33,286 nt of DNA, from NCBI GenBank assembly GCA_944323195.1, contig CALURR010000106.1, positions 1-33,286 on the forward strand, in the 5' to 3' direction. The stretch is from Candidatus Gastranaerophilales bacterium. GTDB lineage: Bacteria > Cyanobacteriota > Vampirovibrionia > Gastranaerophilales > Gastranaerophilaceae. Below the pieces are notes generated by a model. The model saw only the letters and a list, made by a program, of their open reading frames with translations. It was not told the origin of the DNA and did no database searches. Below are positions 748 to 33,286 of the stretch, piece by piece (position 1 is the first letter of the stretch; every line of letters begins with the position of its first letter). The position numbers and the translations under genes are program-made.

Positions 748-2057
748 TACAAGATAAAGTTTTATCTCAAATTGATAATATTATTAAAAACTACAGAGTT
801 TTTCTTGTGGGCGGATATTTAAGAAATTATTTTCTAAACAACGAAATTTCATCTGACAGAGATTTAGTTTGCATACAAGGAGCAATCAACCTTGCTAAGG
901 AATTGGCCGAAAAATTAGATGGAACTTTTATTGAACTGGATAGTGAAAATAAAATTTATAGAGTTGTTCTAAAAGATAAAGAAAATTATTTTGATATATC
1001 TGAAGCCATTGAAAATAATATAGAAAAAGACGCCAAAAGGCGAGATTTTACAATTAATTCAATTTTTTATGACCTAAACAAAAAAGAGCTTTATGACCCT
1101 AATTTTGGATTAGACGACCTTAAAAAAGGGATTATAAAAGCAATTTCACTTGATAATATGCTTGATGATTCTCTTAGATTTTTAAGAATGTACCGCTTTA
1201 GGTCAACAACAGGCTTTAAAATTGATGAAAATTTAAAAAATTTTTCTAAAAAAAACTTCTCCAAAATTCATTCTATTGCAAAAGAAAGAATTAATTATGA
1301 AATCATGCATCTTTTTGAAGGAAAATATTTAGTTGAAACTCTTTTAGAAATGCTTGAAGATGAAACTCTGGAAATAATTTTTCCGTTTATTAAAGAGATT
1401 AAAAAAGTTCCTTCCAACACTCATCACCATCTTGATTTAGTTCATCATTCAATTGAAACTGTAAACAATATCAAATCCAATAACCCTCTTTTAAAAATTG
1501 CAGCACTATACCATGACATAGGAAAACCCTCAACTTGGACAATAGAACCCTCAGGCAGACATCGCTTTATAGGTCATGACTTAAAAGGCGCCCAATTGGC
1601 CAAAAAAGAATTAGAAAATTTAAAATTTTCAAACAAACAAATTTCATACATTTCAGACATGGTTAAATATCATATTTATCCTGCAAGTCTAATTAATTGC
1701 GCCGATAATAAAAAAGCGTACGCTCGATTTATTAGAAAATTAGGCACAAACACTCCCGACATTATAGAACTTTCAAAAGCTGACAGATTAAGCGCAAGAG
1801 GAGTTGATGTAAGCAATGAAATGGTTGAAAAAGCGCTTTTACATCTTGATAATCTGCTTAACTATTATAATGAAGTAGAGTCCATGGCAAAAAATCCAAT
1901 ATGTCTTTTAAATGGCAGAGAAATTATGGAAATTCTAAACATAAAACCATCAAAATTAGTTGGAGATATTACAAATGAACTTCTCGAAATGCAACTAAGC
2001 AAAGAAATTACAACAAAAAAACAAGCCATTAATTTTATTCAAAAATATAAAAAATAA
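741..2057 (+). CDS. cca: CCA-adding tRNA nucleotidyltransferase with HD domain
   Basis: Class II nucleotidyltransferase (polymerase-beta superfamily) of the family that adds or repairs the 3' CCA of tRNAs. FLVGGYLRN (21-29) is the glycine-rich motif and D39-R-D41 the metal-binding carboxylate pair. RRDFTINSIFYD and DDSLRFLRMYRF follow as the nucleotide-recognition motifs of the family. The C-terminal part holds an HD phosphohydrolase domain with HHHLDLVHHS and YHDIGKP (H258-D259). The tRNA-Ala in this window lacks an encoded CCA, so a CCA-adding activity is needed, whereas tRNA-Ile encodes it. The 438-residue length is normal for bacterial CCA/poly(A)-polymerase-like proteins with HD domains. 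The start lies 8-10 nt after AAGG within rsmE. An exclusively poly(A) polymerase or A-adding role cannot be excluded from motifs alone. Confidence 0.93.
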   Translation: MLIQDKVLSQIDNIIKNYRVFLVGGYLRNYFLNNEISSDRDLVCIQGAINLAKELAEKLDGTFIELDSENKIYRVVLKDKENYFDISEAIENNIEKDAKRRDFTINSIFYDLNKKELYDPNFGLDDLKKGIIKAISLDNMLDDSLRFLRMYRFRSTTGFKIDENLKNFSKKNFSKIHSIAKERINYEIMHLFEGKYLVETLLEMLEDETLEIIFPFIKEIKKVPSNTHHHLDLVHHSIETVNNIKSNNPLLKIAALYHDIGKPSTWTIEPSGRHRFIGHDLKGAQLAKKELENLKFSNKQISYISDMVKYHIYPASLINCADNKKAYARFIRKLGTNTPDIIELSKADRLSARGVDVSNEMVEKALLHLDNLLNYYNEVESMAKNPICLLNGREIMEILNIKPSKLVGDITNELLEMQLSKEITTKKQAINFIQKYKK

Positions 2058-2660: not shown

Positions 2661-3404
2661 TTACTCTTCTTTTATTTCTTTTACAACTTCAATTCCGTCG
2701 TCAATTTCAGTTTGCAATATAGTTTCGCGTGTTTCGGTTTTTCCTATATTTTCTTCTTTTTGAACATCTTCTTGAACTTCATCTTCTTCAATAATATCTG
2801 TATCTTCATTTTTTACTTTATATGGCTTAACAACCAGATAGAAAACGTTGCCTTCTTTTATAGTAACTTCATTTCCATATTCGACCATAGACAAAAAAGA
2901 ATCTTTATACACTTGTTTTGCGCCTGATTTAAGTCTATTTCCCTCAGGGTTTGTTGCAACACCATCAGCAAAAGATACGCAATATGAAAAACCTTTCATA
3001 AAAAAATTGCCAACTGCGCCCGCTGCGGTTTTTGCTATTTTTTTAGGCGGAGTTTTTTTGATTTCTTCTTTATTTAAAACAGTTTTTGCATACCTTGCAA
3101 CTAAAGGTTCTTGAACACCATGCACCCCTTTTGAATCTTCATAGCTCTCAACAGTAAAATAAATTTTAGCATCTCTTTTTGCTCTGGTTGGATCTGTTAC
3201 TTTTTTTAGAACACAATTTAAAATATCACCTTTTAGCATATAAATATCATTCATTGTACCGTCTTCAACTAGTTTAACACTAAAATTAAAGCCCGCTTCA
3301 ACATCCTCACTCGAAAACCCCTTTAGCGCCTCAACATGTAATTTATCTGCCGCAAAAGCACAAGAAGCAAGCAATAGCATTAATACAGATAATAACTTTT
3401 TCAT
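2661..3404 (-). CDS. Exported hypothetical protein, possible lipoprotein
   Basis: A 247-residue protein starting with a clear signal peptide: positive MKK, hydrophobic core SVLMLLLAS and then CAFAAD. Two cleavage readings are possible. LASC (13-16) fits a lipobox, which would give a lipoprotein, and AFA-A (17-20) fits signal peptidase I. Residues 20-105 appear beta-rich. A glycine/alanine stretch, AKTAAGAVGNFFMKG, could be a short membrane-associating helix. The C-terminal ~50 residues are very acidic (DTDIIEEDEVQEDVQKEEN) and probably disordered. I recognise no family. A possible -10 box (TATAAT on the reverse strand, 3450-3455) lies about 45 nt upstream of the ATG. Transcription ends at the strong terminator at 2626-2652. 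Confidence 0.75.
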   Translation of the reverse strand: MKKLLSVLMLLLASCAFAADKLHVEALKGFSSEDVEAGFNFSVKLVEDGTMNDIYMLKGDILNCVLKKVTDPTRAKRDAKIYFTVESYEDSKGVHGVQEPLVARYAKTVLNKEEIKKTPPKKIAKTAAGAVGNFFMKGFSYCVSFADGVATNPEGNRLKSGAKQVYKDSFLSMVEYGNEVTIKEGNVFYLVVKPYKVKNEDTDIIEEDEVQEDVQKEENIGKTETRETILQTEIDDGIEVVKEIKEE

Positions 3405-5563: not shown

Positions 5564-6400
5564 ATGAAGAGAATATTAATATCATTTTTAGCAATTTTAC
5601 TATTTCAGCCTTGTTTTGCTTTTAATTTTGAAAAGGAGGAAAATATTATGACAAGAGAAGATGTAAGTAATAAAAATTATGAAATATTGTTTCATGCAAA
5701 ACCAAGCGAAACTGATTTTGGAACTGACTCTGAATTTATGGCAATTTTAAGAAAATATATTTTTTGTGATATTTTTTCGCTTGGTGATTTAGATATTAAA
5801 ACAAGAGAGCTTATAACTGTTACATCTTTATCGGTTCAACAAACCTTGCCTCAATTAAAAGCGCATATAAATGCTGCGCTAAATGTCGGGGTTGAGCCTG
5901 ATGAATTAATTGAGGCAATATATCAGTGTGCTCCTTTTATTGGTTTTCCTAAAACCTTAAACGCTGTTAGTGTTTTAAATCAAGTTTTAAATGAAAGAGG
6001 GCTTGAATTTGAAAATAAATATAGAGCAACAACAAATGACGAAAACAGATATAAAAAAGGATTGGAAATTCAAAATCCTTTGTATGGCGATGAAATAGCG
6101 CAAACTTTTAAGGGGTTGCCTAATAATATGGGTCAGGATGTTGCAAGATTTTTGACGGAATTTTGTTTTGGGGATATTTATACAAGAAATGGCTTGGATG
6201 TTAAAACAAGAGAATTGCTTTCGATTGTAATTTTGACAACAGCAGGAAATTTTGAACAACTAAAAAGCCATGTAATTGGTGCAAAAAAGGCAAATAATAC
6301 AATAGAAGAAATAACAGCAGCCATTGTGCAATGTATGCCTTATGTTGGTTTTCCAAATGCATTTGAGGCATTGAAAATTGTAAAAAATTCCGTAAAATAG
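5564..6400 (+). CDS. Carboxymuconolactone decarboxylase (CMD/AhpD-like) family protein, tandem domains
   Basis: The 278 residues contain two homologous CMD domains. The first (about 60-140) has DIKTRELITVTSL...QLKAHINAALNVG...EAIYQCAPFIGFP; the second (about 180-275) has DVKTRELLSIVIL...QLKSHVIGAKKAN...AAIVQCMPYVGFP. Each keeps the family's T-R-E-L, H and G-x-P positions but only one cysteine, so the CxxC thiol pair of AhpD is absent. The substrate cannot be told. The N-terminus MKRILISFLAILLFQPCFA is a good signal peptide, with AAAGGA upstream of its ATG. A second in-frame ATG at 5648 (residue 29) follows a much stronger AGGAGG, so an unexported form is likely as well. ogt starts 4 nt after the stop, suggesting one operon. 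Confidence 0.85.
   Translation: MKRILISFLAILLFQPCFAFNFEKEENIMTREDVSNKNYEILFHAKPSETDFGTDSEFMAILRKYIFCDIFSLGDLDIKTRELITVTSLSVQQTLPQLKAHINAALNVGVEPDELIEAIYQCAPFIGFPKTLNAVSVLNQVLNERGLEFENKYRATTNDENRYKKGLEIQNPLYGDEIAQTFKGLPNNMGQDVARFLTEFCFGDIYTRNGLDVKTRELLSIVILTTAGNFEQLKSHVIGAKKANNTIEEITAAIVQCMPYVGFPNAFEALKIVKNSVK
5634..5650 (+). promoter_or_regulatory. Strong internal ribosome-binding site and second start of the CMD gene
   Basis: AGGAGG (5634-5639) sits 8 nt before an in-frame ATG (5648-5650), just after the signal-peptide codons. It is a better ribosome site than that of the first ATG. Initiation here would yield a 250-residue cytoplasmic protein beginning MTREDVSNKN. Confidence 0.65.
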
Positions 6401-6404
6401 TTTT

Positions 6405-6938
6405 ATGAATGTGTTTTATAAATCAAAATATGTTTCACCTTTAGGAAAAATTATTCTTGTTTCGGATAATGAAAGTTTAGTTGGATTGTATTTTGAAGAT
6501 AGAAAAACCTATTTTAATTTTAATAAAATTAGATTGGAAGAAAATAGCAATCTTCCAATCTTTTTTGATATTAAAAATTGGCTTGATGATTATTTTGGCG
6601 GGAAAAATCCTGATGTATCAAAATTATCTTTAAAGTTTATTAATGGCACAGATTTTCAAAAGGAAGTTTGGAAGATTTTATTAACTATACCATATTCTAG
6701 AGTTTTGACTTATAAAGATGTAACAGCTAAGTTGATTTTAAAATTAGGTTTAAAATCAATGTCCAATCAGGCAGTAGCTAATGCAATAGCAAAAAATCCA
6801 ATTTTGATAATTGTTCCTTGTCATAGGGTTATTGCCTCAAACGGAACTTTAAGAGGTTATGTTGCAGGGCTTGATATTAAGGAAAAATTGTTAAAACTTG
6901 AAGATTATAATAATTCGTCTTCGATTAATTTATCATGA
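6405..6938 (+). CDS. ogt: Methylated-DNA--[protein]-cysteine S-methyltransferase
   Basis: Suicide DNA-repair protein that moves the methyl group of O6-methylguanine to its own cysteine. The active-site motif IIVPCHRVI carries the acceptor C139. FQKEVWKILLTIPYSRVLTYKDV is the DNA-binding helix-turn-helix region, and LRGYVAGLDIKEKLLKLE matches the family's GYxxGLxxKxxLLxxE ending. The N-terminal ribonuclease-like domain (1-80) is short, as in Ogt rather than Ada. The gene begins 4 nt after the CMD-family gene, probably in the same transcript, and has only a weak ribosome site. Its last 34 nt overlap the 3' end of the convergent TolC-family gene. After the usual end (LLKLE) it has a short tail, DYNNSSSINLS, within that overlap. 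Confidence 0.95.
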   Translation: MNVFYKSKYVSPLGKIILVSDNESLVGLYFEDRKTYFNFNKIRLEENSNLPIFFDIKNWLDDYFGGKNPDVSKLSLKFINGTDFQKEVWKILLTIPYSRVLTYKDVTAKLILKLGLKSMSNQAVANAIAKNPILIIVPCHRVIASNGTLRGYVAGLDIKEKLLKLEDYNNSSSINLS

Positions 6939-9478: not shown

Positions 9479-10342
9479 ATGATAGGAAAAATTAACTTTA
9501 CTACCCCTTTGCGTTTTATGAGCAGCAATAAAAATTATTCTGATTTACCAACAAGAACTTTAAAATGCGATGAGTTTGTAAGAAGTCAAGAACCTTGTGA
9601 TAAAAAAATGCAAGCCTATACTTATGCAAAAAATCGAATAATAAAGGAACTTCTTGATACAGGTTATGAATATCAAGTTGTGATTTCTCCAGATGGTGAT
9701 ATATTGGATGAAGGTGTTGGTGATGATAATTTTTGTAGTGTAAATGTTAATAAAATTGTTCCAAACTCCGAACTCTTTCATGGACATCCAAAGTCTTGGC
9801 CTCTCTCTGTGGAGGATGTTGCTATGCTTTTGTATACCGATGCAATAAGTGAAAAAGTTTTATCTGTTGATGGTAGATATTCTAAAATGATAAAAAAAAC
9901 TCCCTTTAAATTGAGTTTACAACAAGCTGCAAAAGAACTTTCTGAATATAAAAAACAAATGGGGCTTGCTGCTCTAGATAAGCTTGGAATTAGCTACGAG
10001 ATAACTATGGATGATGTTCTTGAGATGGCAAGACAATATTTTGATTATACTATGTGTGCTAAATGCTCATATTCTGATGAGGACTTGTTGTGTCAATTAA
10101 AACAAATGGGCATAGATGTTTCTCAGACTCCCGAAAGCATAGCGCAAGAGTTTGCTGACATTATGCCTTTTGATGCAAGGGCTAGATTTGATATTAGTGG
10201 TAAGGCTGATAAGTTGTTAGATGAGAAAAGCAATGATATTAAAGCTTTTTTAGAAACTCCCGAGGGAGTAAAGGTAAGACATAATATTGACAGAGAAATT
10301 GCAAAAGTGCACGATTTAATTTATGAAACTAATATGGAATAG
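9479..10342 (+). CDS. Hypothetical protein with JAMM-like HxHP...SxxD motif
   Basis: A 287-residue protein. Residues 63-145 read VVISPDGDILDEG, then ELFHGHPKSWPLSVEDVAMLL and SVDGRYSKM. H101-G-H103-P...S110-x-x-D113 closely resembles the zinc ligands of JAB/MPN (JAMM, RadC-like) domains. The spacer between the second His and Ser is six residues rather than the usual seven, and the upstream acidic residue is uncertain, so catalytic activity is only a possibility. The C-terminal 150 residues are helical and unrecognised, with CAKCSYSDEDLLCQL at about 197-211. The N-terminus INFTTPLRFMSSN and DEFVRS (31-36) resemble lineage-type openings; compare DKFVKS in the gene at 22245. AAGGAGAAAACC provides a strong ribosome site. 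A 6-bp inverted repeat (CTAAGT/ACTTAG, 9438-9455) lies in the divergent upstream region. Confidence 0.7.
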   Translation: MIGKINFTTPLRFMSSNKNYSDLPTRTLKCDEFVRSQEPCDKKMQAYTYAKNRIIKELLDTGYEYQVVISPDGDILDEGVGDDNFCSVNVNKIVPNSELFHGHPKSWPLSVEDVAMLLYTDAISEKVLSVDGRYSKMIKKTPFKLSLQQAAKELSEYKKQMGLAALDKLGISYEITMDDVLEMARQYFDYTMCAKCSYSDEDLLCQLKQMGIDVSQTPESIAQEFADIMPFDARARFDISGKADKLLDEKSNDIKAFLETPEGVKVRHNIDREIAKVHDLIYETNME

Positions 10343-19520: not shown

Positions 19521-21023
19521 TTAGTTAATCCAGTCAATAGAAGTATTAAATTTTGTTTTGTTGTAATAGTTTTGATCTTTTGTTGGTAATTTAAATTTTT
19601 TATTTTTATATTTTTTATCTAAAAATAAACTAAAGTTTTCATCTTCGTATGCCAAAAACCAGTTTTTATTATTTTTCATGTTTTTAACAATAGGGTATGA
19701 TTTATCCAGTATTAAAATATCGGTGTGATATTTTTTTAAAAAAGTATCTTGGTTTTTTGACAAAAATACTCCTGCCATTTCATTTATCAGGTTATTATCA
19801 TAAACTTCTTCATATCTTCCATCCATGAATACTTGATTGTTTGGATAAAGTTTATATGAGGCATAGCTTCCATAATGAAAATTTATAAAAAGATTGCCTT
19901 TAATTGAATTTTGTTTAATAAATTCGACGCAATAGATTGGATAATCAAGCGTGGTTATTAAAAAATTTTTATTTTGAAAATGCGAAATTGTAGAAATTAA
20001 AATTAAGAAGCATATTATTATTTCTTTTAAATTGTCATAAATTTCAGGTAGTTTTTTGTTAAAAATGTTATAAAAATCATTATAGCATAATGCCATTACG
20101 CAATATGTGAAAAATACGTGAAATCTTAGTGATTTAAGAGAAATTATTAAAGTAAAAAACAAAATAAGATATTTTGTTTTATCTATTTTTTTATAAAAAT
20201 CTTTAGTTTTAATGTTTTTAAATATTGAATAGATAAAAAATAAATTAGTGATTATAAAAAATATTTTAAATTTGATTAAAAAATATTTAAAATTTGCATT
20301 AAAAAATATACTTTGCCATTCTGTTATATGAATTCGATTTAAGCTCAATGCGCTAAAAATATAATAGATATATTCAATTCCATATGGGTTAATTAATGAT
20401 GTAAATAAGCTAGCTAAAAAGCAATAAAGATAGGGTTTATATTTTTCTTTGTTTAAAAATTCACCTAGAGTAAATAAACCTATTAAAACTAAACCAATGC
20501 TAAACCCTCCATGGCAATTTGCCCAAATTATGTTTAATACGGGCAGGCACCATAAAACTCTGTAGTTATTTTTAACTTTGGCATATTTTAGAGTATAAAG
20601 ATATATAATAAAAAATAAAAAAGAAAAAGTCTGACATCTTATTGTTGAAAAAATATTATAGGAAATTGAATGTAGGCAAAAGAAGAAAAACAAAAAATGC
20701 AATTTTGAATTTTTATTATCCAGCCTGATTATTTTAGTAATGACGAATAAAGTTAAAAATATAATCAAAGATTTAAATATGTATAAACCAATATCGCTAA
20801 AATTATTTTGTATTAAATAAAAAATTAAACTTGAACCCCATTCATGGTCAATGAATTGATGAGTTGCACCATAGGATTGAAAATCAAAATTAAACAATTC
20901 TCCTGTTTGAAAAAAGTTTTTCCCAACAATTAATCTTGCCCAAAAGTCATAGTCTATGTTGCAATCAATTAGCCCAAACAAAAGAACAAATAGAAATAAT
21001 GTTAAATAAAATATAAAATCCAT
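19521..21023 (-). CDS. Multi-spanning membrane protein, GT-C glycosyltransferase-like
   Basis: A 500-residue integral membrane protein with about ten hydrophobic segments in the first 350 residues and a soluble C-terminal part (about 360-500). The first loop reads CNIDYDFWARLIVGKNFFQ and DHEWGSS. This resembles the 'D-x-W/F-W/A...G...D-x-x-S...HEW' arrangement of a large family of GT-C-like membrane proteins, and ANCHGGFSIGL matches their 'AN-x-HGGF' motif. In GT-C enzymes acidic residues of the first loop bind the lipid-phosphate sugar donor, so lipid-linked sugar transfer is plausible, but no substrate can be assigned. The reverse-strand TATAAT lies only about 7 nt before the ATG and there is no ribosome site, suggesting a leaderless or near-leaderless transcript. 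It is upstream of and co-directional with the AsmA-like gene. Confidence 0.7.
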   Translation of the reverse strand: MDFIFYLTLFLFVLLFGLIDCNIDYDFWARLIVGKNFFQTGELFNFDFQSYGATHQFIDHEWGSSLIFYLIQNNFSDIGLYIFKSLIIFLTLFVITKIIRLDNKNSKLHFLFFFFCLHSISYNIFSTIRCQTFSFLFFIIYLYTLKYAKVKNNYRVLWCLPVLNIIWANCHGGFSIGLVLIGLFTLGEFLNKEKYKPYLYCFLASLFTSLINPYGIEYIYYIFSALSLNRIHITEWQSIFFNANFKYFLIKFKIFFIITNLFFIYSIFKNIKTKDFYKKIDKTKYLILFFTLIISLKSLRFHVFFTYCVMALCYNDFYNIFNKKLPEIYDNLKEIIICFLILISTISHFQNKNFLITTLDYPIYCVEFIKQNSIKGNLFINFHYGSYASYKLYPNNQVFMDGRYEEVYDNNLINEMAGVFLSKNQDTFLKKYHTDILILDKSYPIVKNMKNNKNWFLAYEDENFSLFLDKKYKNKKFKLPTKDQNYYNKTKFNTSIDWIN

Positions 21024-22244: not shown

Positions 22245-23345
22245 ATGACTACTATATCACCAATGTTGGCTCAAAAATTAAATAATAATCAAAAAACATC
22301 TACCACTACAAGCAATTATAATCAAGTATCAACTAAATCAATGCCAAGTGACAAGTTTGTAAAGTCAAATAAATCAAAAAAAGGTTTGATTATTGCAGCT
22401 TCCATTGGCTCTGGCCTAGTGGCTTTTGGTGGTTTCATGGTACTTGCTAAAAAAGGTAAACTAGGTAATGGTTGTAAAGAGTTTGTTGAGAACTTATTTA
22501 AATTTGGCAAAAAAAATACAGATATAAACACTGAAAAGTTATTAAAACCAGAAACAATGCCAAGTGTAACACCGATAGAAATAAAAAAAGCAACAACCAC
22601 GCTGTATTCTATACCCGAGATAAATAATACCGATAAATTTGAGCCAATAAATGCTAAATTAAATGATGATGTAGCAGAAGACGTACATGAGTGGATAGAG
22701 TATAGAAAAAAATTACCTATATTTAATGATGATTTTGCTAAGAATGGTCGTAAATTCCGAAATAATTCCGAGTTTAGCGAGTTTGAAATTATTCCTCACA
22801 CATACTCTGATAACAATACCGTTATTGCCTCAATTCGCGGAAATTCTCGTGTGCAAACAACCACATGTAAATATAATGGCTACAATCGTTGGCGCTACAA
22901 AGATGGAAAAATGTATCGTGTTGATAATTTAGCAGAAGTAGGTGTTAATGTTTTTGATTTAAATTCTGGAAAAGTTGGAGAAATAGGTGTTGGCTATAGT
23001 AAGGATGGTAGACGAGTAGTAAGTTTTAAATTCTATGTTGGTTCGCAGGATACAACATTTAGATCGGCACCAATGGAAATAGATTTGGTATCAGACAATG
23101 GAGAATTTACACAAGCTCAAAAAGATGTAATAAAAATATATTCACAAGCAGATACTAAATACGCATCTCAAGATGGAAACAATCCTTTATCGCTTTGCTG
23201 GGGGCAAGAGTCAGAGGCTGTTGGAGATTCACCAAAACAATTTGGCTTTAATTTAAATACGCTTTTATCGGCAATTCAAACTTGGGCAAATAAACTAGAT
23301 GATAATTTTGATTTTGATAAAGCTGTAGAAAATTTTTCAGCTTAA
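22245..23345 (+). CDS. Hypothetical membrane-anchored protein
   Basis: 366 residues. A polar Asn/Thr/Ser-rich N-terminus (1-45, with PSDKFVKSNKSKK) precedes one hydrophobic helix, GLIIAASIGSGLVAFGGFMVL (about 47-67), bounded by lysines. No signal-peptidase site is obvious. The rest is soluble: a Thr/Pro linker to about 150, then a mixed alpha/beta domain with FEIIPHTYSDNNTVIASIRGN, YNGYNRWRYKDGKMYRVDN and GVGYSKDGRRVVSFKFYVG, which suggests a beta-sheet sandwich or wedge. Family not recognised. 'DKFVKS' resembles 'DEFVRS' in the gene at 9479, perhaps a lineage-specific N-terminal signature. AGGAAAG supports the start. It follows pheS by 125 nt and probably has its own promoter. Confidence 0.7.
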   Translation: MTTISPMLAQKLNNNQKTSTTTSNYNQVSTKSMPSDKFVKSNKSKKGLIIAASIGSGLVAFGGFMVLAKKGKLGNGCKEFVENLFKFGKKNTDINTEKLLKPETMPSVTPIEIKKATTTLYSIPEINNTDKFEPINAKLNDDVAEDVHEWIEYRKKLPIFNDDFAKNGRKFRNNSEFSEFEIIPHTYSDNNTVIASIRGNSRVQTTTCKYNGYNRWRYKDGKMYRVDNLAEVGVNVFDLNSGKVGEIGVGYSKDGRRVVSFKFYVGSQDTTFRSAPMEIDLVSDNGEFTQAQKDVIKIYSQADTKYASQDGNNPLSLCWGQESEAVGDSPKQFGFNLNTLLSAIQTWANKLDDNFDFDKAVENFSA

Positions 23346-30997: not shown

Positions 30998-31315
30998 TTA
31001 GTTCATAAAACACAATACTAATTTTAGTATTCTGTTTAAGTCTTTATCTGAGGCGCTTTTTAAGATGCCGTTGATTTTATTTAATATGTATGTTCTACTT
31101 TGAAAATGTTGAGTTTTGAAAAATTCCATATATTCAACATTTAAGACATTTGCAAATCTTTCTATTAAGTCTGCTTTAGGAAAACTTCTTCCTGTTTCAA
31201 TGTGACTCATATGTTTTGGATCAATACCAACTTGTTCTGCCAGTTGGTATTGTGTGATGCCTTTTTTGGTTCTAAGTTCTTTTATTCTTAGACCAAAATC
31301 TTTTTTTATGTTCAT
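30998..31315 (-). CDS. XRE-family helix-turn-helix regulator
   Basis: A 105-residue protein with a Cro/CI-type HTH at residues 8-62: LRIKELRTKKGITQYQLAEQVGI, then the recognition helix PKHMSHIETGRSFPKADLIERFANVLNV. The C-terminal 40 residues are helical (ILNKINGILKSASDKDLNRILKLVLCFMN) and may be a dimerisation module. AAAAGGAGGATAA just before the ATG is a near-perfect ribosome site. It faces thrS tail to tail and is divergent from the prepilin-like surface gene at 31483. It may therefore control that gene or itself; an inverted repeat in the shared upstream region (31367-31457) is a candidate operator. Confidence 0.92.
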   Translation of the reverse strand: MNIKKDFGLRIKELRTKKGITQYQLAEQVGIDPKHMSHIETGRSFPKADLIERFANVLNVEYMEFFKTQHFQSRTYILNKINGILKSASDKDLNRILKLVLCFMN

Positions 31316-31482: not shown

Positions 31483-33286
31483 ATGAAGAAGATTTTTGGG
31501 TTTTCCCTAATCGAGCTATTGATTAGTCTGATTGTGATTAGCTGTATAACTGCAGCTTTCACTCCACTAATCACTAAAAAGTTCTCGTCTGGAGTTTTTG
31601 GCGGCGGCGGTGCCGTATCTGATATCACAACTGAATGTTCTCAATTCACATCAAATTGTACGCTTTGTACAAGCAATTTTTGTATAGCTTGCACAGGTCT
31701 TTCTTGTGCGGCTGATGAGTATAAGGATGATAAGACTTGCAGTTGTAAAAAGTGTTCTGAAAAATATGGATCTGATTGTCATGTTTGTAATGCAAATAAA
31801 TGTTTGACTTGTCCTGATGGACAATATTTGGATGAAAATCAGCAATGTGTATATTGTTCAACTAAATTTAATAATTGTGCAAAATGTAATTCTTCTGAGT
31901 GCACAAGTTGTGCAAGCGGCTATGTGATGGTTGATCCTGATTCTAATAATCCTTGTACAAGTTTCACATGTCCCAGCCCTGATTTTATGCAAATTGATGA
32001 TTTGTGTGTAACTGCTAAAAATATGGGTGATAGTGGTATTTTATCTATTCCTGATTCGATTAATAATGTAAGTGCGGGAACTGAATGCAATACAACAAGC
32101 GAAAAATGTTGTTGGAGCGGTAATACTGCAAATCAGTCGTCTTGTAATGAAAATAATGGAAATTATTCAGGATGCAATAGGACAGTTTGCAATTGGTCGG
32201 CTGCAAATGAAATATGTAAAAATTATAATTATGCAGGATTATCTTGGAGATTGGCAACTGATTCTGAGATGGCAAACTGGGATATTAATTCAATTGATGT
32301 TGGTGCAAATGGACTTCAATTGTGTGATAGTCTTTCAGGGTATTTATCTCCTCAATGCGCTTCATCATCATCTTGTGTTGGCGCATATAACAACGCTTGT
32401 AACATTTATGCTGTTTGGAATAGTATAGGTGGTTCAAATAGTGATGTGTATAATTTAAATAAAGGAGTGTGGAATTTAGTCAATCTTTCAACGCAGTCAG
32501 CTTTATCTGTTCGTTGTGTTGCTAAACACGCTTCAAATTGTAAAATCAAATTTGGTCAATATTGCGAATCTTGTTCAACAAGTTCTTGTGTAACGTGCAG
32601 TAATACTTGTCCATATGGACAATATCTTGACATTGGAAACAAATGTACTTGTACTGATTGTAAGGAAAAGTATGGAGAATATTGTACAAGTTGCAATGCT
32701 AAAGAATGTTTATCTTGCGATACTGATTATAAGTTATCTGATAATCCGTCTTCTTCAAGTGCTTGTGAGCCTGAGTTTTCTTGTTCCGGTAGCGATTTTA
32801 TGCAAATTGGAAATCTTTGTATAACAAGAAGAAATATGGGTGATAGCAGTGCTTTAACTATTCCAAGTGGGGTTAAGGTTGTAAGCACCGGTCAAACTTG
32901 CAATGCTTCAAGCTCAAATAAGTGTTGTTGGAAAGGTAAAACAGCAGGTAGCTGCGACAATGCTAATGGCGGTGGTTACAGTGGTTGTACAAGAACCGTT
33001 TGTGACTGGTATGCTGCTGATTATATTTGTAAGAATTTTAATGCGGGTGGTAAAACTTGGCGCTTAGCGACAACATCTGAAATGTCTAATTGGGCAAATA
33101 ACTCTAAAGGTAAAGGCATTAATGGTCTACAACTTTGCGACAACCGTTCAGGTTACTCTTCAGCTCAGTGTAACGGTACGGGTAGTTGCCCAGGGTCGTA
33201 CGGTAATTGGTGCAACCCGTACGATGTGTGGAGTGGTACTGTTAATGGTTCTTCCTATGCTTACAATTACTACTTGAATAGTGGTG
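31483..33286 (+). CDS. Prepilin-type surface protein with tandem Cys-rich and lectin-like modules (3' truncated by window)
   Basis: 601 complete codons are visible, with no stop before the window end. The N-terminus MKKIFG/FSLIELLISLIVIS is a textbook type IV prepilin leader: cleavage after G6, F7 as +1, E11 as the +5 Glu, then a hydrophobic helix. After a GGGG linker, residues 52-166 are cysteine-rich (about 21 Cys), containing C-x2-C-x4-C-x2-C at 59-70, 99-110 and 132-143. Residues 167-350 form a domain opening DFMQIDDLCVTAKNMGDSG and carrying CNWSAANEICKNY and WRLATDSEM (W255), and ending SVRCVAK. This resembles FISUMP or C-type-lectin/FGE-like folds. A second module follows: Cys-rich 353-437 (motifs at 361-372 and 401-412), then DFMQIGNLC at 438 and WRLATTSEM (W526), exactly 271 residues later. 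Likely secreted or pilus-associated adhesion; function unproven. Confidence 0.88.
   Translation, partial: MKKIFGFSLIELLISLIVISCITAAFTPLITKKFSSGVFGGGGAVSDITTECSQFTSNCTLCTSNFCIACTGLSCAADEYKDDKTCSCKKCSEKYGSDCHVCNANKCLTCPDGQYLDENQQCVYCSTKFNNCAKCNSSECTSCASGYVMVDPDSNNPCTSFTCPSPDFMQIDDLCVTAKNMGDSGILSIPDSINNVSAGTECNTTSEKCCWSGNTANQSSCNENNGNYSGCNRTVCNWSAANEICKNYNYAGLSWRLATDSEMANWDINSIDVGANGLQLCDSLSGYLSPQCASSSSCVGAYNNACNIYAVWNSIGGSNSDVYNLNKGVWNLVNLSTQSALSVRCVAKHASNCKIKFGQYCESCSTSSCVTCSNTCPYGQYLDIGNKCTCTDCKEKYGEYCTSCNAKECLSCDTDYKLSDNPSSSSACEPEFSCSGSDFMQIGNLCITRRNMGDSSALTIPSGVKVVSTGQTCNASSSNKCCWKGKTAGSCDNANGGGYSGCTRTVCDWYAADYICKNFNAGGKTWRLATTSEMSNWANNSKGKGINGLQLCDNRSGYSSAQCNGTGSCPGSYGNWCNPYDVWSGTVNGSSYAYNYYLNSG
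31981..32538 (+). repeat. Lectin-like domain, copy 1
   Basis: Residues 167-352 of the prepilin-type protein. It matches copy 2 in order and spacing of DFMQI, NMGDS, KCCW, SGCxRTVCxW, ICKN, WRLATxSEM, NGLQLCD and SGY. It closes with SALSVRCVAK, a typical last strand of FISUMP/lectin-like domains. Confidence 0.8.
32794..33286 (+). repeat. Lectin-like domain, copy 2 (truncated by window)
   Basis: Begins 813 nt after copy 1 and keeps that offset at WRLAT. At the DNA level it is much diverged. From about 33120 onward the GC content is about half (61 of 120 bases counted over 33121-33240) against about 40% in the matching part of copy 1. In codons 33172-33285 only 1 of 38 ends in A and 29 end in C or T. 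Confidence 0.8.

Follow-up and report, generated by a model that had tools for sequence, protein, structure and literature searches.

The window analyzed here, a stretch of 33,286 nucleotides that makes up the entire contig C106 of a 1.71-Mb genome in 131 contigs, ends within a gene coding for a protein with a type IV prepilin leader, Cys-rich blocks and two C-type-lectin domains, the second of which carries a variable repeat (VR) of a diversity-generating retroelement (DGR) found on another contig. The gene belongs to a large family, whose members are best explained, at a probability of about 0.88, as pilus- or pseudopilus-anchored, disulfide-stiffened, multi-headed adhesins diversified by one DGR.

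The window gene and the regulator next to it are composed as follows:

31483..33286, plus strand: target gene of the DGR, coding for prepilin leader, Cys-rich blocks and a double C-type lectin; 601 codons, 3' end lost at the contig end
31483..31587, plus strand: class III (type IV prepilin) leader and hydrophobic helix; Pfam N_methyl, helix predicted at residues 9-36
31618..31971, plus strand: Cys-rich block 1, three C-x2-C-x4-C-x2-C units, furin-repeat-like
31966..32532, plus strand: C-type-lectin (Lcl_C/FISUMP) domain 1; Lcl_C match, fold match at residues 162-350 including 2y3c
32539..32766, plus strand: Cys-rich block 2, two C-x2-C-x4-C-x2-C units
32800..33286, plus strand: C-type-lectin (Lcl_C) domain 2, lost in part at the contig end; Lcl_C at residues 483-599
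30998..31315, minus strand: XRE-family HTH regulator, divergent from the target gene; equivalent position in the relative G017 (L114)

The leader, MKKIFG followed by FSLIELLISLIVISCITAAF, scores above the cut-off for Pfam N_methyl (E 1.3e-4) and features the motif FSLIE; cleavage is predicted between G6 and F7, Glu being at position +5 of the predicted mature protein. The pattern C-x2-C-x4-C-x2-C is found exactly 5 times, at residues 59, 99, 132, 361 and 401, whereas 2000 composition shuffles contain 0.07 copies on average and never more than 3. Both FISUMP-like domains match the Pfam family Lcl_C (PF07603, formerly DUF1566). The leader with Glu+5, the five Cys motifs and the two FISUMP/C-type-lectin domains named in the original prediction, which had been made from the sequence alone, are thus each borne out by Pfam or by the motif count.

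The genes leuD, leuB and thrS are located upstream of the window gene, and the divergent XRE regulator may control it. In G017 the order leuB-thrS-XRE-prepilin gene is retained, the orthologue being 88% identical over residues 1-204. The rest of the window holds no other feature that explains the prepilin-lectin gene. Three sizeable window ORFs, at 22245-23345 (plus strand), 19521-21023 (minus strand) and 9479-10342 (plus strand), lack a Pfam match.

The window gene has more than ten paralogues in the source genome, where 35 places match it on some 15 contigs, many of them at contig ends. Family members start with a prepilin leader, followed by a unit of Cys-rich block plus lectin domain that is repeated one to three times; about a dozen copies retain the leader with Glu+5. 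Identity among paralogues is high except in a patch of N/Y/D/S/H/R-type substitutions directly before the conserved SVRCV strand, which by its sequence looks like a DGR variable region. At least seven genes carry both a VR and a leader, on contigs C106 (the window), C115, C75 (both ends), C44, C30 and C65. VRs are also present on C47 and C83 in genes whose 5' ends are absent, and which may belong to the truncated N-terminal stubs on C39, C69, C34 and C17. A further family member on C35 (L035, 4838-5514) is split over two frames near the contig end, which probably points to a pseudogene or to misassembly.

A DNA search of the genome with the variable patch of the window gene hit 12 other places, one of them directly after a reverse transcriptase (RT) on contig C47. 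The locus is arranged as follows:

C47, 1-846: 3' end of a target gene
C47, 1059-1487: Avd (PHROG 3206 and Pfam bAvd)
C47, 1502-2647: RT, 381 aa (PF00078)
C47, about 2798-3014: template repeat (TR; L022), directly after the RT

Avd matches PHROG 3206, 'Avd protein of DGR', with an E-value of 2.6e-18, and Pfam bAvd with 7e-9 (36.6 bits, slightly under the cut-off of 40). The closest solved relative of the RT is 8ub7 (E 7e-30), the RT of the Bordetella phage DGR, group II intron and other RTs scoring 1e-6 or weaker; the motif GLPIGNLTSQ and the catalytic YVDD are both present. No Rfam match was found in the locus. The genome therefore holds a DGR-type RT with an adjoining TR and an Avd, and adenine-biased VRs lie within the C-type-lectin folds of many genes, the set of features by which a DGR is recognized. 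A phage origin of this DGR was considered and rejected, as a scan of viral_contigs with the RT gave a single 25% relative, no phage record is as much as 60% identical, and the C47 neighbours resemble housekeeping genes. A second RT, on contig C26 (L037, 1390-2268), was likewise rejected as a DGR, being type VI retron-like (PADLOC RT_VI, E 4.5e-56); a search of L037 with the DGR template turned up no TR-like repeat.

Scanning the window with the TR gave a sole match, at 33131-33286, the end of which is identical to the template:

33131..33286, plus strand: DGR variable repeat (VR) in lectin domain 2, with substitutions at template adenines alone
33224..33286, plus strand: 63-nt block identical to the C47 TR, the last 63 nt of the contig

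Aligned without gaps to the TR, the window VR is substituted at 11 of 45 adenines and at none of 111 other bases (p=4e-7). The equivalent region of lectin domain 1, at about 32311-32520, is degenerate, has lost its TR match, and was left out of the VR count. When the window VR is pooled with ten VRs from elsewhere in the genome, substitutions amount to 223/635 at adenines (35%) and 71/1595 at other bases (4.5%; Fisher odds ratio 11.6, p=1e-74). A comparable bias is absent from the 240 nt upstream of the VRs (14.8% at adenines vs. 11.4%, odds ratio 1.35), and the VR edges are sharp. Copies are 93.1% identical at the non-adenine sites of the VR, 85.9% in the upstream flank, and 56.7% at adenine sites. 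Adenine sites being diverse, and the remaining sites more alike than the flank, the VRs appear to have been overwritten from a common template with adenines randomized. The marks of the retroelement thus fall at the tips of these sugar-binding-type domains. The TR read in the VR frame features 20 AAY codons, at which the 11 copies show a mean of 6.0 residues (1.6 at codons without A). Changing AAY to NNY gives access to 15 amino acids and no stop, so that about 3x10^23 products are possible per VR. VRs other than that of the window also differ from the TR at some non-adenine positions, one of them a base that only the current TR has; part of the variation is therefore older than the present TR, or derives from recombination between copies.

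Since its last 63 nt are identical to a TR on another contig, contig C106 broke in the repeat, and this end of the window VR could be a short chimera, copied from the TR by misassembly. All 11 adenine changes of the window VR lie upstream of the block. The current TR has a T as third base of its codon 30 (VR frame; window position 33225), whereas every VR but that of the window has another base; this reflects either a recent change in the TR, or TR sequence copied into the window contig end by misassembly. As the contig breaks in the VR, a metagenome reader sees a lone odd pilin, an example of the limit noted in the Roux survey, according to which remote targets are undetectable in fragmented assemblies (PMC8144416).

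Ten VRs can be placed within their genes, the window's, cut by the contig end, falling outside this set. Seven are internal (on C115, C83, C75, which has two, C44, C30 and C65), and three C-terminal. Each internal VR is followed by in-frame Cys-rich sequence, and by lectin domains too where the contig continues. Internal VRs are substituted at 35.4% of adenines and 2.9% of other bases (odds ratio 18.5), and C-terminal VRs differ from the TR at 9.3% of non-adenine sites, their adenine rate being 37%. With adenines substituted at much the same rate (35% vs. 37%) and fewer non-template differences, the internal VRs are genuine and apparently recent DGR targets. A GC-rich 3' block, CGGTGCGCTGTGT, is common to internal and C-terminal VRs and encodes the conserved SVRCV core strand; a variant block, TCAGTTCGCTGTGT, is found in two internal copies. 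The block is a putative homing signal (IMH), coded within a structurally fixed strand. In a DGR survey VRs reside at target C-termini, since the homing signal must avoid coding constraints (PMC8144416), and in cyanobacterial DGRs remote targets and VRs are found exclusively near gene 3' ends (PMC7517822), whereas most VRs are internal here. A C-terminal VR is customary in DGR targets but not a strict part of their definition. The C-terminal constraint seems escapable if the signal is coded within the conserved SVRCV strand.

The named genomes with matches are those of Candidatus Gastranaerophilales, a gut group whose sister lineage is the Cyanobacteria. Besides the source genome, 8 genomes out of 58 relatives have a close RT, as do 35 of the 286 sampled from the order. 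In most same-genus relatives the gene family is kept and no DGR RT was detected, so that the family is independent of the DGR RT. Two relatives have their own TR and VRs, with changes at 24/60 adenines vs. 1/156 other bases in G017, and 6/27 vs. 0/70 in G025; in G005 a prepilin target, Avd and RT share one locus, TR and VR differing at 19/56 adenines vs. 1/161 other bases. Downstream of the one DGR RT of G025 (L099) are two TR-like repeats, 5830-6046 and 6267-6480 (minus strand), of which the first alone matches the VRs well, the other perhaps being a former template or an alternative one. Another DGR of the order, in G042 (L104), comprises a FISUMP-like target at 2-970, an Avd, and a TR at 1746-1866 (plus strand), and substitutions there affect 13/46 adenines vs. 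2/75 other bases. A repeat beyond the RT of G010 (L100, 6819-7030, minus strand) was rejected as a TR, differing from the target mainly at non-adenine bases, and in sequence looks like a second VR remnant; no TR was located, and the genome was left out of the VR/TR evidence.

Codon positions in the variable patch set these genomes apart. Entropies of 1.50, 1.52 and 1.49 in G021, which has no RT, make the third position as variable as the first and second. In the source genome (G000) and G025 the third position has an entropy of about 1.0 vs. 1.3-1.5 at the others, and is 78-83% pyrimidine, the pattern expected from AAY mutagenesis. Codon positions do not differ clearly in the G017 patch, for which a wider and more diverged set was compared. 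The patches of RT-less relatives suggest that the RT was lost and that fossil VRs remain, a reading that resembles RT loss in Treponema, strains of which keep target genes after losing the RT (PMC4891356).

Alternatively, paralogues that duplicate in the ordinary way, come under positive selection and exchange sequence by gene conversion might account for the variable lectin domains, with a DGR that is incidental or serves its neighbour only. The large paralogous family would fit, as would the fact that it persists and varies in relatives that lack the RT (in G021, for one, all three codon positions vary to the same extent), and the non-adenine changes of some VRs. Yet this is very improbable in view of an adenine bias (odds ratio 11.6) that extends over many contigs and is absent from the flanks, of sharp VR edges enclosing non-adenine sites more alike than the flanks, and of the third-position conservation and pyrimidine endings in the RT-positive G000 and G025. 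That the DGR is a relic, and the VRs frozen products of past activity, is less far-fetched but still unlikely: the RT was not found in most same-genus genomes and many VRs carry a base unlike the current TR, against which stand the intact open frames of RT and Avd, accompanied by TRs, in G000, G017, G025 and G005, and several VRs with only 0-4 non-adenine differences from the TR. DGR mutagenesis is probably ongoing in the source genome.

In the AlphaFold2 model of the window protein (17 sequences, pLDDT 79), the N-terminus forms a helix, the Cys-rich units are beta structures, and both lectin domains have the C-type fold; no compact pilin alpha/beta globular domain follows the helix in the model, and the junction between helix and Cys-rich region has a low pLDDT. 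The protein (P0001) has no sequence match in the PDB. The top PDB match in Foldseek is the C-terminal domain of Legionella Lcl (8q4e, E 5e-3), a protein with a collagen-like stalk; it has its Pfam family in common with the window lectin domains, no DGR being implied. VIA-align finds C-type lectins at Z 7-9, and the longest alignment (140 residues, Z 8.8, rmsd 3.6) is with the T. denticola DGR variable protein 2y3c, the only DGR variable protein among the fold matches listed. The top matches of the Cys-rich block modelled alone (pLDDT 88) are all R-spondin Fu repeats, and weak (Z up to 4.5, about 49 residues). A genome search found a prepilin peptidase (PF01478), a PilC-type T2SSF protein (PF00482), a secretin (PF00263), and a gene for the disulfide-forming enzyme VKOR.

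These results sort out the original prediction, which is upheld in part. Its prepilin-type anchor, disulfide-rich stalk units and lectin-like binding domains are supported, and the checks proposed along with it recovered C-type-lectin folds by structure prediction and comparison, a large paralogous family with one architecture, relatives in Gastranaerophilales, and, in the genome, PilD, assembly genes and the disulfide-forming enzyme VKOR. The term furin-like is a reasonable description of the modelled Cys-rich block and finds weak structural support in the R-spondin repeats, homology being unproven. The proposed kinship with Giardia VSPs found no support, since complete paralogues stop right after the lectin domain, at ...SVRCVTEL or TKL, without a C-terminal membrane helix or anchor: CxxC-rich units are shared with VSPs as with R-spondin and receptor furin-like repeats, but the VSP-type anchor is absent here. 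Nor is the term giant supported, complete paralogues being about 620-860 residues long. DGR targeting of the lectin domains, and the large paralogous family, were both missed.

Doubt remains chiefly about how the proteins are displayed rather than about the DGR itself. Features of type IV pilins or pseudopilins found here are the class III leader with Glu+5, the hydrophobic helix, and the peptidase and assembly genes; processing by PilD, display on a pilus or pseudopilus, the disulfide pattern, a stalk-like role of the Cys-rich units, and the nature of the ligand are deduced. The DGR targets may not be pilus parts at all, the leader serving as an inner-membrane anchor or for delivery by a T2SS-like pseudopilus, and the proteins being surface-anchored or secreted receptors. 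This alternative is a serious contender, if somewhat short of even odds. It draws on a model devoid of the pilin globular domain, on the large multi-domain cargo (600-860 residues), and on the single secretin and single two-domain PilC-type gene found in the genome, and is countered by the prepilin leader with Glu+5 kept in about a dozen copies, by the prepilin peptidase, and by the existence of large modular minor pilins.

In the preferred reading, that of a pilus- or pseudopilus-anchored adhesin family, the leader would anchor a surface adhesin or recognition protein in the inner membrane; upon cleavage of the leader by the prepilin peptidase, the protein would join a pilus or pseudopilus, its C-type-lectin heads held apart by disulfide-rich furin-like units that act as a rigid stalk. 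TR RNA would be copied, with errors at adenines, by the DGR (Avd, RT and TR) elsewhere on the chromosome, and the cDNA would replace VRs in the window gene and in at least six other leader-bearing paralogues, homing at C-terminal and, unusually, at internal lectin domains under guidance of the CGGTGCGCTGTGT motif. Binding proteins with several heads would thus be borne on pili as a diverse repertoire, each VR offering 20 randomizable AAY codons; they would probably serve to attach the cell to partners that change (glycans of the host, food particles, other microbes), or to evade recognition by phage or host.

DGRs, multi-target DGRs and lectin targets are already known. One TR/RT serves several remote C-type-lectin targets in the Treponema denticola DGR (TvpA family) as here, seven target genes being found in strain ATCC 35405 (PMC4891356); yet the targets in Treponema are for the most part lipoproteins whose domains are FGE-type, whereas those described here have internal VRs and combine a prepilin leader with a Cys-rich stalk and repeated lectin units. 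Cyanobacterial multi-target DGRs similarly have dispersed C-type-lectin paralogues under one DGR, but the N-terminal partners of their targets are mostly kinases, and mostly cytosolic (PMC7517822), unlike the surface-type prepilin targets described here. As cited in PMC12632263, Macadangdang et al. (2024) reported that type V tip pilins are diversified by Bacteroides DGRs; in that account gut bacteria again diversify pilus-linked binding domains, the pilins being type V lipoproteins with another assembly route, in contrast to the type IV prepilin leaders found here. DGR targets of the Lcl_C (DUF1566) lectin family, as here, have been mentioned with 'putative pilin structures' (PMC6642488), a similar hint at pilins. 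In the literature searched, most subscription papers being outside it, no paper was found joining Melainabacteria or Gastranaerophilales to DGRs, or a prepilin to DUF1566, nor any description of the leader-Cys-stalk-repeated-lectin architecture, or of Gastranaerophilales as a DGR case. As far as that literature shows, prepilin-anchored, Cys-stalked, repeated-lectin DGR targets with mostly internal VRs in Gastranaerophilales are new.

These data connect DGRs both with proteins anchored by a type IV prepilin leader and with the Gastranaerophilales, an uncultured gut group related to cyanobacteria. There is perhaps an even chance that multi-headed lectins encoded by many genes are displayed on type IV pilus-like structures, while one DGR rewrites both internal and terminal domains by means of a homing signal embedded in coding sequence. 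If true, this would break the rule of the C-terminal VR in DGR targets, and bacteria would have their own equivalent of combinatorial, hypermutated recognition repertoires. By DGR rewriting of codons, the bacterium appears able to make endlessly new surface binding proteins.
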